Assembly (NCBI RefSeq): GCF_003569045.1
Contig: NZ_BFCB01000003.1
Location: 2,294,001-2,358,000 of the forward strand
DNA length: 64,000 nt
Reading direction: 5' to 3'
DNA from: Aggregatilinea lenta
Lineage (GTDB): Bacteria > Chloroflexota > Anaerolineae > Aggregatilineales > Aggregatilineaceae
How positions within the stretch are numbered: position 1 is the first letter of the stretch; the number at the start of each line of letters is the position of its first letter. Below the pieces are notes generated by a model. That model ran no database searches. It was not told where the DNA came from and saw nothing but the letters and a program-made list of their open reading frames with translations. The position numbers and the translations under genes were made by a program. This document shows positions 5,242 to 27,771 of the stretch, piece after piece.

Positions 5242-5280
5242 CGTCGCGTCCTCAAGGTATTGGATGAAGCCATACCGTGA

Positions 5281-5309
5281 AGTCTAGCGTTGGCACGGCG
5301 GGGCGTCAA
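5281..5309 (-). promoter_or_regulatory. mtnA promoter (-35/-10)
   Basis: On the minus strand, TTGACG (5304-5309) and TAGACT (5281-5286) are separated by 17 nt, about 40 nt before the mtnA start. The -35 continues into CCCC, as in the obg promoter at 26263. Confidence 0.65.
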
Positions 5310-24317: not shown

Positions 24318-24978
24318 CGTCGGCACTCCTATACAAGTGGTGTTCCTCGACGTACGCACACACGGCGTCCGGCAGTTGGTAGCGCACGCTGACGCCCGCA
24401 GCGATCTGCGCCGCGATATGGGACGCGGACAGCTCGATCAGCGGTGCGTCGATCCAGGCGATACGCGATCGGAGGCCGGGGATGTGACGCTCCAGGTCGT
24501 CGAGGGCAGGGGGGTAACCGGGGCGGCGCATCACGCCGAGCGTTGCCAGCGCGATCAGCTCCGCCGGGCGCGACCAGTTAGGCAGGTCGCGCAGGGAATC
24601 GCCACCGATCAGGAAAAACAGATCCGCGCCGGGATAGTCGGTCTGGACCAGACGCAGCATATCGACGGTGTAGTGCGGGCCGGGCCGGTCGAGGTCCGCG
24701 CGACACAGGGCAAAGCGGTCGTTATCCGCAATCGCGCGCTCGACCATCGCGGCACGGTGCGCGGCGCTGGCGCGTACGTCGGCGGCGAGCTTGTGGGGCG
24801 GATCGGCGGCAGGCGTAAACAATATACAGTCCAGCGCGAGGCTGCTGGCGGACGTCTCGGCCAGGATCAGGTGGCCGACGTGCGGCGGGTCGAAGGTCCC
24901 GCCGAAGATCCCGATGCGTTTCCCGCGCGCTGGATTGGCCCCCCTCACCGCGCTGGCGGCGAGGCTCAGTCTTCCCAT
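24298..24978 (-). CDS. nadD: Nicotinate-nucleotide adenylyltransferase
   Basis: NadD adenylates nicotinate mononucleotide in NAD synthesis. The 226-residue protein has GIFGGTFDPPHVGHL at residues 23-37 (nucleotidyltransferase T/HxGH motif) and LFFLIGGDSLRDLPNW. Its C-terminal motif reads LSASHIAAQIAAG, where the family usually has an arginine (ISxTxIR); here that position is alanine. The N-terminus carries about 20 extra residues whose coding overlaps the obg stop by 13 nt. It sits between obg and the lipoprotein gene in one operon; obg-nadD is a common bacterial pairing. The function is secure, the missing arginine notable. Confidence 0.92.
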   Translation of the reverse strand: MGRLSLAASAVRGANPARGKRIGIFGGTFDPPHVGHLILAETSASSLALDCILFTPAADPPHKLAADVRASAAHRAAMVERAIADNDRFALCRADLDRPGPHYTVDMLRLVQTDYPGADLFFLIGGDSLRDLPNWSRPAELIALATLGVMRRPGYPPALDDLERHIPGLRSRIAWIDAPLIELSASHIAAQIAAGVSVRYQLPDAVCAYVEEHHLYRSADDGRDES

Positions 24979-26231
24979 TCAAACTCCATGTCGCCGATGT
25001 GCACCGTGTCGCCGTTGTGAATGCCCGCGTTGCGCAGGGCCTTGGCGATGCCCATCGATTCGAGGATACGCTGGAAGCGCGCCACGGCCTGATCGTAATC
25101 CCAATAGGTCATGGCGACGGCACGCTCGATGCGCTTGCCCGTCACGCGGAACTCGCCGTTCCGGTCGCGCGCGACTTCGAACGCAAACGGATCTTCGCCG
25201 AGCTGGTAGACCGGCTTTTCGGTTTCTTCGTCGGACACTTCTTCCGGCAGTTCGTCCAGGATCTGCATGGCGCGCAGCAGCACAGTGCGTGTGTTGAGAT
25301 GTGTCGCGGCGGAGATGTCGATCACCTCGTAGTCGAGGGCTTCCAACGCGGCGCGGATTTCCAGCCAGCGGGTTTGCGCGTCGGGCAGATCCATCTTGTT
25401 GAACGCGACGATCTGCGGCTTTTCGCCCAGGCGCTCGTCGAACAGGGCCAGCTCGGTGTTGATCTGGTGGAAGTCGGCCAGCGGGTCCTCCGCGCTGCCG
25501 TCGAGCACGTGGATCAGCACGCGCGTGCGCTGGATGTGGCGCAGAAAGTCGTGGCCCAGCCCGACGCCCGCGTGCGCGCCTTCGATCAGTCCCGGAATAT
25601 CGGCCAGCACGATGTCACGGTGATCGACCATCGCCACGCCCAGATTCGGCTCCAGGGTGGTGAAGGGGTAATCGGCGATCTTCGGCTTGGCGTTGCTGAG
25701 GACGGACAGCAGGGTCGATTTGCCCGCGTTGGGCGCGCCGACCAGCCCGATATCGGCCAGCAGCTTGAGTTCAAGCTGCAAACGGCGCTCCTCGCCCGGC
25801 TCCCCTTTTTCGGCGTAACGCGGCGCCTGGTTGGTGCTGGTGGCGTAACGCGCGTTGCCGCGCCCGCCGCGCCCGCCCTTGGCGACCATCACCTGCTGGC
25901 CCGGCTCCACGAGGTCCGCGATCAGCGCTCCTGTTTCCGCATCGCGCACGATGGTGCCCGGCGGCACGTCGATCAGTAGATCGTCGCCGCCGTGCCCGGT
26001 ACGGTCACTCTGGCCGCCGTGCTCGCCGTGCTGGGCCTGAAACGAACGCTTCTGGTTGAAGACGACCAGCGTGTTGAGGGTCGGCTTGACGACAAGGTAC
26101 ACGTCGCCACCCTTGCCGCCGTCACCGCCGTTGGGACCGCCCCTGGGGATATACTTCTCGCGGCGGAACGCGATGATGCCGTTGCCGCCATTGCCGCTTT
26201 TTACGGTTATCGTTGCTTCATCATAGCTCAT
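24966..26231 (-). CDS. obg: Obg-family GTPase
   Basis: Obg (CgtA) is a ribosome-associated GTPase needed for late 50S assembly and stress control. The 421-residue protein has a glycine-rich Obg fold (residues 1-155; SGNGGNGIIAFRREKYIPRGGPNGGDGGKGGDVYL), a G domain with GAPNAGKST, DIPGLIEGA and NKMD, and a C-terminal OCT domain (about 345-421) found in Gram-positive and Chloroflexota types. There is no ribosome binding site before the ATG, but a -10 box lies only 8 nt away, so the mRNA is probably leaderless. It leads the obg-nadD-lipoprotein operon. Confidence 0.96.
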   Translation of the reverse strand: MSYDEATITVKSGNGGNGIIAFRREKYIPRGGPNGGDGGKGGDVYLVVKPTLNTLVVFNQKRSFQAQHGEHGGQSDRTGHGGDDLLIDVPPGTIVRDAETGALIADLVEPGQQVMVAKGGRGGRGNARYATSTNQAPRYAEKGEPGEERRLQLELKLLADIGLVGAPNAGKSTLLSVLSNAKPKIADYPFTTLEPNLGVAMVDHRDIVLADIPGLIEGAHAGVGLGHDFLRHIQRTRVLIHVLDGSAEDPLADFHQINTELALFDERLGEKPQIVAFNKMDLPDAQTRWLEIRAALEALDYEVIDISAATHLNTRTVLLRAMQILDELPEEVSDEETEKPVYQLGEDPFAFEVARDRNGEFRVTGKRIERAVAMTYWDYDQAVARFQRILESMGIAKALRNAGIHNGDTVHIGDMEFEWED

Positions 26232-26239
26232 GTTGGCGG

Positions 26240-26268
26240 AGTTTAGCGCGCGCCGTGAGGGGCGTCAA
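26240..26268 (-). promoter_or_regulatory. obg promoter, leaderless arrangement
   Basis: TTGACG (26263-26268), 17 nt, then TAAACT (26240-26245) on the minus strand, ending 8 nt before the obg ATG. Transcription should begin at or beside the start codon. The module is repeated in front of the DUF4926 gene. Confidence 0.65.
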
Positions 26269-26301
26269 ACCGGGGAGCGATCCCGGTTGGTGAGCGTAGG
26301 G

Positions 26302-26526
26302 CTAGGTGAGGGCGCGCGCGTGCAGGACTTCCGTGCTGCGCACCGGACGTGCCTGCGCCGCCTCGACCGTCACCACGTCGAGCGTCTGCCCGTCGAGCGT
26401 GAAGAATTCGACCTCGTAGGCTTCGCCCGTGCGGTAAATGTGGACGACCGTGCCTACGTCCCCCGCGCGAAGCTGGTAGTCGGGCAGGTCCACTGTCAGG
26501 ACGATCCGGTCGTGTTCTTTGATCAT
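26302..26526 (-). CDS. DUF4926-type small protein
   Basis: The 74-residue protein reads MIKEHDRIVLTVDLPDYQLRAGDVGTVVHIY, then YEVEFFTLDGQTLDVVTVEAAQARP, which matches the small DUF4926 family (an SH3-like barrel often found near toxin-antitoxin or mobile genes). It lies between obg and a low-GC propeller gene on the same strand. No ribosome binding site precedes the ATG; a promoter nearly identical to that of obg ends 8 nt upstream, so it too is probably leaderless. No toxin partner is adjacent. Confidence 0.75.
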   Translation of the reverse strand: MIKEHDRIVLTVDLPDYQLRAGDVGTVVHIYRTGEAYEVEFFTLDGQTLDVVTVEAAQARPVRSTEVLHARALT

Positions 26527-26534
26527 GGCGCGGG

Positions 26535-26563
26535 AGTTCAGCGCGCCGCGTGAGGGGCGTCAG
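26535..26563 (-). promoter_or_regulatory. DUF4926 gene promoter, leaderless arrangement
   Basis: CTGACG (26558-26563), 17 nt, TGAACT (26535-26540), then 8 nt to the ATG. The geometry equals that of the obg promoter. It overlaps the 3' end of the propeller gene. Confidence 0.55.
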
Positions 26564-27647
26564 CCCGGGAGAAGCACTCGATGAGGTAAACAGACATCAA
26601 ATCGATATCAGCGAAATAAACGATAATGAAGCCATTATCCGAAATCAACTGACTGGCCCCTATTGAATCATCGCTTTCGGTCGTATCGTAGTTGGAAGGT
26701 TCAGGCGGCGAAAAACGCCGAGAGCCTATTTGCTGACCCGTATTGATATCTAGTGCCTGCAATTCCGCGTTGATAGTGAGCGAGTAAACGGCATTGCCCA
26801 CAACGGTTGGACCAGCGATGGAGCTTCCAGAATAGCGCCACAGGTCTCCGCCTGATCGCTGGTCTAGGGCAAAAATATCAGTTCCCACCCCAACTATTAT
26901 TTTCCCTTGTGCAACAGCTATACCTTGCAAACAGCAGGGATTTAACTTGTTTTTTGAGGATTCCCACGTAACTTCGTTATCAACCGTTATTGCCTGCAGA
27001 TACCCGCCATGTATCTGCCAGAAGTGATCGTAAACAAAGTAATCACTGCTAAACGAGTCACGAGGCGCGACTATAATGGGGGTGCCCTTTTTGCCTGTAT
27101 CCGGGTCTAGTGGCGAGATTTGCACTCCTTGTTTTTCTGCGGTGACAGCAAAAAGCCGCCCATCGGTGAGCATCAAGACTTGTAGTTCTCCTCTGTAACC
27201 GATGCTTACAGGGGTGTTGCTCCATAGTTTTTCGCCTGATGTTGCATCCAACGCAACGATACTCCTGCCTTTTATTGGAGAGTAATAGACATAGATACGA
27301 TTTCGATCTCTGTCCAGGAAAAGTTTGCCAGGACTAGCAACACGAGATTCCCACTTAACTTGACCAGTTCTTGCCTCCAACGCGAAAACCCGATCACACT
27401 GGCTTTCAGATATAAACACCGTATCGTTCATAGCCCTGACGGTGATATTTTGAGCGTCAATGAAGTTCCAGAGGTTATCCAAATTCAGCGAGGCGCTCGT
27501 AACCGTTCTTTCGTGCGATTGCCCTATACGGCTGTCAACTGGATCGCAATCATTGAACAATGCGGGGTGGGTCCAAGATAGCCATATAAACACGCCGCTA
27601 AATAGCCACACAAAGAGTGCAAAGCCTATCTTAAAGTTCCGATTCAT
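26538..27647 (-). CDS. PQQ-like beta-propeller repeat protein, membrane-anchored, low GC
   Basis: The protein of about 369 residues begins MNRNFKIGFALFVWLFSGVFIWLSW, an uncleaved anchor or signal. Blade repeats of PQQ-like type follow: FALEARTGQVKWES, VALDATSGEKLWSN, FALDQRSGGDLWRY and QALDINTGQQIG. Such propellers usually act as extracellular scaffolds (BamB-like) or dehydrogenases; no PQQ ligand set is visible. Base composition is clearly AT-richer than its neighbours, which suggests transfer. The last residues (SRADAPHAAR) are read through the promoter repeat of the DUF4926 gene. The start is uncertain: two upstream ATGs exist (27653, 27689) and none has a strong ribosome site. Confidence 0.75.
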   Translation of the reverse strand: MNRNFKIGFALFVWLFSGVFIWLSWTHPALFNDCDPVDSRIGQSHERTVTSASLNLDNLWNFIDAQNITVRAMNDTVFISESQCDRVFALEARTGQVKWESRVASPGKLFLDRDRNRIYVYYSPIKGRSIVALDATSGEKLWSNTPVSIGYRGELQVLMLTDGRLFAVTAEKQGVQISPLDPDTGKKGTPIIVAPRDSFSSDYFVYDHFWQIHGGYLQAITVDNEVTWESSKNKLNPCCLQGIAVAQGKIIVGVGTDIFALDQRSGGDLWRYSGSSIAGPTVVGNAVYSLTINAELQALDINTGQQIGSRRFSPPEPSNYDTTESDDSIGASQLISDNGFIIVYFADIDLMSVYLIECFSRADAPHAAR

Positions 27648-27771
27648 TGTCATTATTCTTTTAAGATAAAGTGAGCAACGAAGGCCCAACGCTGTTTTAC
27701 AGAGGCGTTGAGCATGACCAGTCTACTTTAAAAGCGCACTATTGGATACTGTCGGGGCTTTTGATGTGTTG

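Follow-up and report, generated by a model that had tools for sequence, protein, structure and literature searches.

A conserved obg promoter predicted to give leaderless mRNA in Aggregatilinea lenta and its family, and a diverged second copy that is probably weak or dead

INTRODUCTION

Two neighboring genes of Aggregatilinea lenta, the essential gene obg, which encodes the ribosome-assembly GTPase Obg, and a gene encoding a DUF4926 protein, are each preceded by a copy of one promoter-like module whose -10 box lies almost upon the start codon. Both lie in the 64,000-nt stretch of DNA analyzed here as a whole (the window). The first-pass annotation regarded both copies as promoters of probably leaderless genes and proposed that a promoter cassette had been copied from obg to its neighbor. 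This raises two questions: whether obg is indeed leaderless, and whether the second copy drives DUF4926. Zheng et al. (2011; PMC3160421) describe bacterial leaderless genes in which a -10 signal, TANNNT, lies about 12 nt ahead of the start codon, and report such genes in Chloroflexi too (4 of 12 genomes; mean, 4.7%).

RESULTS

The repeated module

On the minus strand, obg is preceded by TTGACG, a 17-nt spacer, TAAACT, and 8 nt to the ATG at 26231 (module to 26229), and DUF4926 by CTGACG, 17 nt, TGAACT, and 8 nt to the ATG at 26526 (module to 26524) (Table 1). The spacer and the distance to the ATG that had been described for both copies are borne out, and neither gene has a GGAG-, GAGG-, or AGGA-type ribosome binding site, as had also been claimed. 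Over the 37 nt from the -35 to the ATG, the copies are identical at 29 positions; in windows resampled by a Markov model (n = 40), the best pairs reached 22 to 25 of 37. The repeat search returned a single family (54 nt, 78% identity), and BLAST between the copies found a 30-nt core of 90% identity (E value, 4e-5); the likeness of about 85% given at first fits this core and is somewhat generous for the whole. In the complete 6.2-Mb genome, the module occurs at these two places only when up to 3 mismatches are allowed (control, 0). The resampling and the genome-wide control rule out a chance repeat and confirm the duplication; the two places only also rule out a promoter cassette of genome-wide use. 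Judged by eye, both copies resemble the promoters of relatives about equally.

Table 1. Features of the obg locus and related promoter places (window positions, except in the last line, which refers to the genome)
Feature	Position	Strand	Basis
obg, 421 aa, predicted leaderless	24966..26231	-	Pfam GTP1_OBG 1e-62, MMR_HSR1, DUF1967
Repeat copy 1, 54 nt, reference, at obg	26221..26274	-	Repeat search
-10 element of obg promoter, TAAACT, 8 nt before ATG	26240..26245	-	TANACT at 7-10 nt in 14 family genomes
-35 element of obg promoter, TTGACG	26263..26268	-	Sequence; TTGACG in 14/14 family genomes with assembled obg start
Hairpin-forming inverted repeat AACCGGG...CCCGGTT, between DUF4926 stop and obg promoter	26268..26288	-	By eye
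DUF4926 gene, 74 aa, without Shine-Dalgarno site	26302..26526	-	Pfam DUF4926 1.5e-23
Repeat copy 2, 78% identical, at DUF4926	26516..26569	-	Repeat search; BLAST core E 4e-5
-10-like element of copy 2, TGAACT, second base changed	26535..26540	-	Sequence; matrix score
PQQ-repeat (beta-propeller) ORF, end encoded by promoter copy 2	26538..27662	-	Pfam PQQ_2
-35-like element of copy 2, CTGACG, first base changed	26558..26563	-	Comparison with 14 obg promoters
Similar promoter of mtnA, TTGACG-17-TAGACT, normal leader	5281..5309	-	Sequence
hisG leader of the same genome (L168)	G000:C1:149444-149482	+	Strict promoter-plus-ATG place

The promoter and start of obg

The copy before obg is a sigma-70-type promoter, TTGACG-17-TAAACT, with 9 of 12 consensus matches and a spacing within 16 to 18 nt. 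It scores 18.6 bits with a matrix built from the promoters of relatives (13 obg orthologues and 35 leader promoters described below; two leader promoters with another -35, those of L229 and L256, were left out). The first T of its -10 lies 14 nt before the ATG (13 to 16 nt in relatives), close to the distance of about 12 nt in known leaderless genes, and no Shine-Dalgarno site precedes the start. A wrongly placed start is ruled out: no earlier in-frame ATG, GTG, or TTG follows the preceding stop, and the orthologues begin at the same residue. Transcription usually starts 6 to 7 nt after the -10, so a leader of only 0 to 4 nt is predicted for obg; one of 1 to 4 nt is not strictly leaderless. 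The inverted repeat just upstream of the promoter has few T residues behind it and is absent from the terminator predictions for the window.

The other promoter singled out at first, that of mtnA, proved to be as described: it is similar in sequence and has a normal leader, with the mtnA ATG 39 nt after the -10. A further ATG, out of frame with mtnA, follows this -10 at 7 nt (5271-5281, minus strand) and opens a 23-codon frame that overlaps the mtnA start.

Conservation of the obg layout

All 14 family genomes in which the start of obg is assembled, from 11 genera, carry the layout TTGACG-N16-18-TANACT-N5-11-ATG at this gene. Of the 18 family genomes, two had obg cut off (G002 and G013) and two gave only weak matches to other GTPases (G003 and G005). 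At the 10 named family loci (L005 to L014), which come from the same assemblies as 10 of the 14 genomes and are not independent evidence, the spacer is always 17 nt, the -10 always ends 7 to 10 nt before the ATG, and a Shine-Dalgarno site is never present (0/10). When the same test was applied at seven positions 20 to 87 nt upstream of obg, 0 or 1 of the 10 loci passed, one locus (L014) having just 50 nt upstream of obg. The first claim, that obg is leaderless, is thus well supported by sequence, with a predicted leader of 0 to 4 nt, since the layout holds in every one of the 14 genomes and across 11 genera.

The alternative that obg is an ordinary leadered gene, transcribed mainly from upstream and with a minor or chance promoter next to its ATG, draws on the upstream genes, which share the orientation of obg both in the window and in four relatives; read-through from them could give a longer obg mRNA. 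We regard this alternative as very improbable, because both boxes, the spacer, and the distance are conserved in all 14 genomes, and because a leadered message would have no Shine-Dalgarno site at any of the 10 loci.

The strict pattern itself occurs at 38 places in the 18 family genomes, compared with 8 in the control, and 14 of the 38 are obg. Among the 30 places whose frames were examined, 12 are obg, and only one of the other 18 opens a frame of at least 80 aa from that ATG; the 8 places outside this check include two at obg (that of A. lenta and that of G009). A recurrent promoter, TTGACG followed by AGAACATTAGTGCTACACTGACTC, precedes related frames of about 410 codons at L141, L145, and L162 (in G004, G009, and G011).

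Outside the family, the survey covered other Chloroflexota, so that 79 of 80 obg loci were used in all (L047, with obg cut off, was dropped). The layout is present at 4 of these 69 other loci (L078, L079, L082, and, weakly, L034), L078 and L082 being near-copies; slid positions gave 0 to 2 of 69. A Shine-Dalgarno site precedes 17 of the 69, and no locus has both site and layout. At L033 and L038, for example, a TANNNT can be seen by eye 9 nt before the obg ATG, but the -35 test failed. In a tree of Obg proteins (49 in all, from the window and 48 of the 79 survey loci, L034 being unlabelled), the family's 11 members fall into a single supported group (100/95), and the layout label needs 3 changes, at least 2 of them forced. 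This suggests that the trait is clustered on the tree, with probably more than one gain or loss.

How exceptional obg is within its genome

The rest of the genome was sampled over 464 kb (the window and 20 further stretches), in which a simple gene caller found 272 genes over 70% of the bases and therefore misses some. Shine-Dalgarno motifs show a sharp peak about 10 to 15 nt before candidate starts in this sample, whereas TANNNT at 11 to 16 nt before starts shows no peak over neighboring positions, and general leaderless expression finds no support. At most upstream positions, TANNNT is more common than before internal ATG or GTG codons, so scattered leaderless starts may exist elsewhere in the genome. 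A Shine-Dalgarno 4-mer is present at a near-best start in 181 of 268 genes, compared with 92 of 268 at a control position. The promoter layout is found at 4 of the 268, and obg alone of these has no Shine-Dalgarno site. In this 464-kb sample, the search for -10 boxes before starts without ribosome sites, as proposed in the first-pass annotation, singles out obg and gives no general signal.

Genome-wide, TTGAC-N17-19-TANNNT occurs at 387 places (control, 178), and with an ATG 6 to 9 nt later at 41 places (control, 6). Coding-like frames of at least 60 aa begin at 10 of the 41, obg among them, and in 4 of the 10 an earlier in-frame start makes the start uncertain; other frames named by Pfam at such places include MarR, TetR, and two ArsR regulators. 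Two of the places, L174 (G000:C2:317266-317303) and L200 (C3:1463001-1463038), are copies of one strict promoter with an ATG 6 nt after the -10; the proteins begin almost identically, with MVQ[IL]AEHFGRIDLSETRAGDRVF, and that of L174 has no Pfam match.

The second copy and the genes around it

The copy before DUF4926 departs from the 14 obg promoters at two bases that are invariant among them: its -35 no longer begins with T, and its -10 has no A in second place. It scores 0.5 bits, compared with at least 16.3 bits for the 48 promoters of relatives, although the A at position 2 of the matrix is circular for the 35 leader promoters, which were found with TANNNT. As many as 42 window positions, copy 2 included, score as high at spacer 17. 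It falls short of the sigma-70-type pattern (A second and T last in the -10, near-consensus -35), and it is absent from the promoter predictions. The copy also overlaps the 3' end of the upstream PQQ frame, the stop codon of which is the TGA of its TGAACT.

About 1.5 kb, comprising the PQQ frame, copy 2, and DUF4926, separates the HIT gene from obg in the window. In four relatives, a HIT or polyprenyl synthase match ends 66 to 110 nt before obg; in the other three of the seven compared, the genes upstream of obg differ from the neighbors in the window. No DUF4926 or PQQ match (E value up to 1e-5) was found within 3 kb upstream of obg at any of these seven family loci, and the DUF4926 genes of relatives sit on other contigs than obg, four of them with a GGAG before the ATG as seen by eye. 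The G+C content is 46.8% in the PQQ part (26571-27662), 79.5% in copy 2, and 65.3% in DUF4926 (window, 63.7%), with a sharp step from 79.5% to 46.8% at about 26570. The best homologue of the PQQ ORF in another genome has 29% identity and aligns only to residue 362 of 374. The low-G+C PQQ ORF between HIT and obg (26571-27771) has only distant homologues in 121 genomes of the order, and the spacer from it to HIT is A+T-rich as well.

The duplication is real, but the earlier proposal that the copied cassette drives a neighbor becomes doubtful, because copy 2 has lost two invariant positions and overlaps the PQQ 3' end, and because neither DUF4926 nor PQQ was found in the 3 kb before obg in any of the seven relatives. 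That both copies work, the module having been copied so as to give DUF4926 leaderless expression, would accord with the identical 17-nt spacer and 8 nt to the ATG, with an intact DUF4926 frame (54 to 67% identical to its five nearest relatives in other genomes), and with the other contexts in which the DUF4926 genes of relatives start. Against this stand the two changed bases in CTGACG and TGAACT and the low score, which many other window positions reach, and we consider it unlikely. Copy 2 is instead read as a decayed duplicate of the obg promoter.

The repeats might also be the ends of a DUF4926 insertion of roughly 295 bp, as a target-site duplication or recombination scar with no regulatory meaning at the second place. 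The copies do lie on either side of DUF4926, 295 nt apart, the seven relatives have no DUF4926 or PQQ match at this place, and the G+C step is sharp. Pfam matches of five neighborhood genes include no adjoining mobile-element gene, and a target duplication of 40 to 50 nt would be unusual, so we hold this origin to be possible but somewhat less probable than not having arisen so. It is compatible with a decayed second copy, as it concerns origin and not function.

Leaders before hisG, proS, and metG

Three of the 41 strict places in the A. lenta genome open short frames before hisG (L168), metG (L170), and proS (L175), and these frames recur across the family. All 17 hisG loci of the family (L216 to L232, from 16 genomes) have the leader, which starts 7 nt after the -10 in every case and has 4 to 7 His codons; a terminator-like hairpin follows at all 17. 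Outside the family, a His-rich leader begins 7 to 13 nt after a -10 box at 12 of 16 hisG loci examined in the same order. The proS leader (L233 to L246) is found at 13 of 14 family loci, 6 to 10 nt after the -10, with a PTPSSVH-like sequence and 1 to 3 Pro codons in 13 of 14; a terminator-like hairpin follows in 10 of 13 and was not found in the other 3. This count leaves out L250, a proS piece from G010 that includes the gene start. The metG leader (L253 to L267) begins 6 to 7 nt after the -10 and is found at 13 of 15 family loci; at one of the other two, the upstream DNA is only 103 nt long. The leader carries 2 to 4 Met codons besides the start in 13 of 15, mostly as MMRM or MRM, and all 13 leaders are followed by a terminator-like hairpin. 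Complementary CTTGCCGTGG and CACGGCAAG stretches can be seen by eye in the metG leaders, and their pairing could form an antiterminator.

The codon evidence is strong for His, and Pro and Met codons are few. As a control, the leader layout occurs at 4 of 256 sampled genes, and at 0 of 256 when the upstream DNA is reversed. An Rfam search of L168, L170, L175, L146, and the window gave no match at the gathering threshold. We consider it probable from these sequences that the three leaders are leaderless attenuators.

DISCUSSION

Taken jointly, a conserved leaderless promoter of obg and a diverged second copy, probably weak or dead, make the explanation that we hold with considerable confidence. 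The box before obg would be a genuine sigma-70-type promoter whose position is kept across the family; obg mRNA would start about 7 nt after the -10, within about 0 to 4 nt of the AUG, and translation would initiate on this 5' AUG without a Shine-Dalgarno site. Copy 2 would be a diverged duplicate that probably arose as the PQQ and DUF4926 stretch came between HIT and obg in this lineage, and would at most give DUF4926 a minor leaderless start.

Work on leaderless genes usually concerns groups in which such genes abound, as in actinobacteria and Deinococcus. Here the layout of one essential gene is kept family-wide, although the sampled part of the genome has Shine-Dalgarno sites and lacks a general leaderless signal, and this points to selection for the initiation mode itself. 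Together with the leaders of hisG, proS, and metG, it suggests that 5'-terminal starts serve a few genes of translation and amino acid supply in these bacteria.

Why obg in particular might be kept leaderless can be framed from reports on ribosome assembly and initiation. Obg is described as preventing 50S from joining 30S subunits (PMC4028186), leaderless messages as being started mostly by intact 70S ribosomes (PMC9031893), and YchF, an Obg-family ATPase, as repressing the translation of leaderless mRNA (PMC8138138). As Obg blocks subunit joining, leaderless initiation depends mostly on 70S ribosomes, and an Obg-family ATPase represses leaderless translation, Obg could conceivably act as its own sensor: more Obg, or ppGpp-bound Obg, would leave less free 70S and lower obg translation, a feedback without leader or repressor. 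We offer this idea as a long shot. YchF resembles the present case as a member of the wider Obg family tied to leaderless translation; it acts on other messages, whereas in the present case the predicted leaderless message is that of obg itself.

Literature searches combining leaderless genes with Chloroflexi, Anaerolineae, or Chloroflexus, and leaderless mRNA with obg, gave no title on a leaderless obg among the matches listed. Leaderless his, pro, or met attenuators in Chloroflexota likewise did not appear among the matches listed, nor in excerpts of PMC3896937, PMC9413887, and PMC4833913.

Leaderless genes as such are already known, and a well-conserved leaderless obg, as its sequence context suggests, is a new member of the class. 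Like the leaderless genes described by Zheng et al. (PMC3160421), obg has the first T of its -10 13 to 16 nt before the ATG and no Shine-Dalgarno site; what marks the present case is that a single essential gene keeps this layout across a whole family, while the genome sample gives no general leaderless signal. The leaders find their counterpart in mycobacteria, where leaderless Cys-rich short ORFs are reported to attenuate operons (PMC4633059; also Canestrari et al. 2020, via PMC9031893). As in those ORFs, the frames before hisG, proS, and metG begin near the -10 and contain codons for the matching amino acid. They differ from the mycobacterial ORFs in that the amino acids are His, Pro, and Met, in that a terminator-like hairpin mostly follows, and in that they belong to Chloroflexota; obg itself is not an attenuator.
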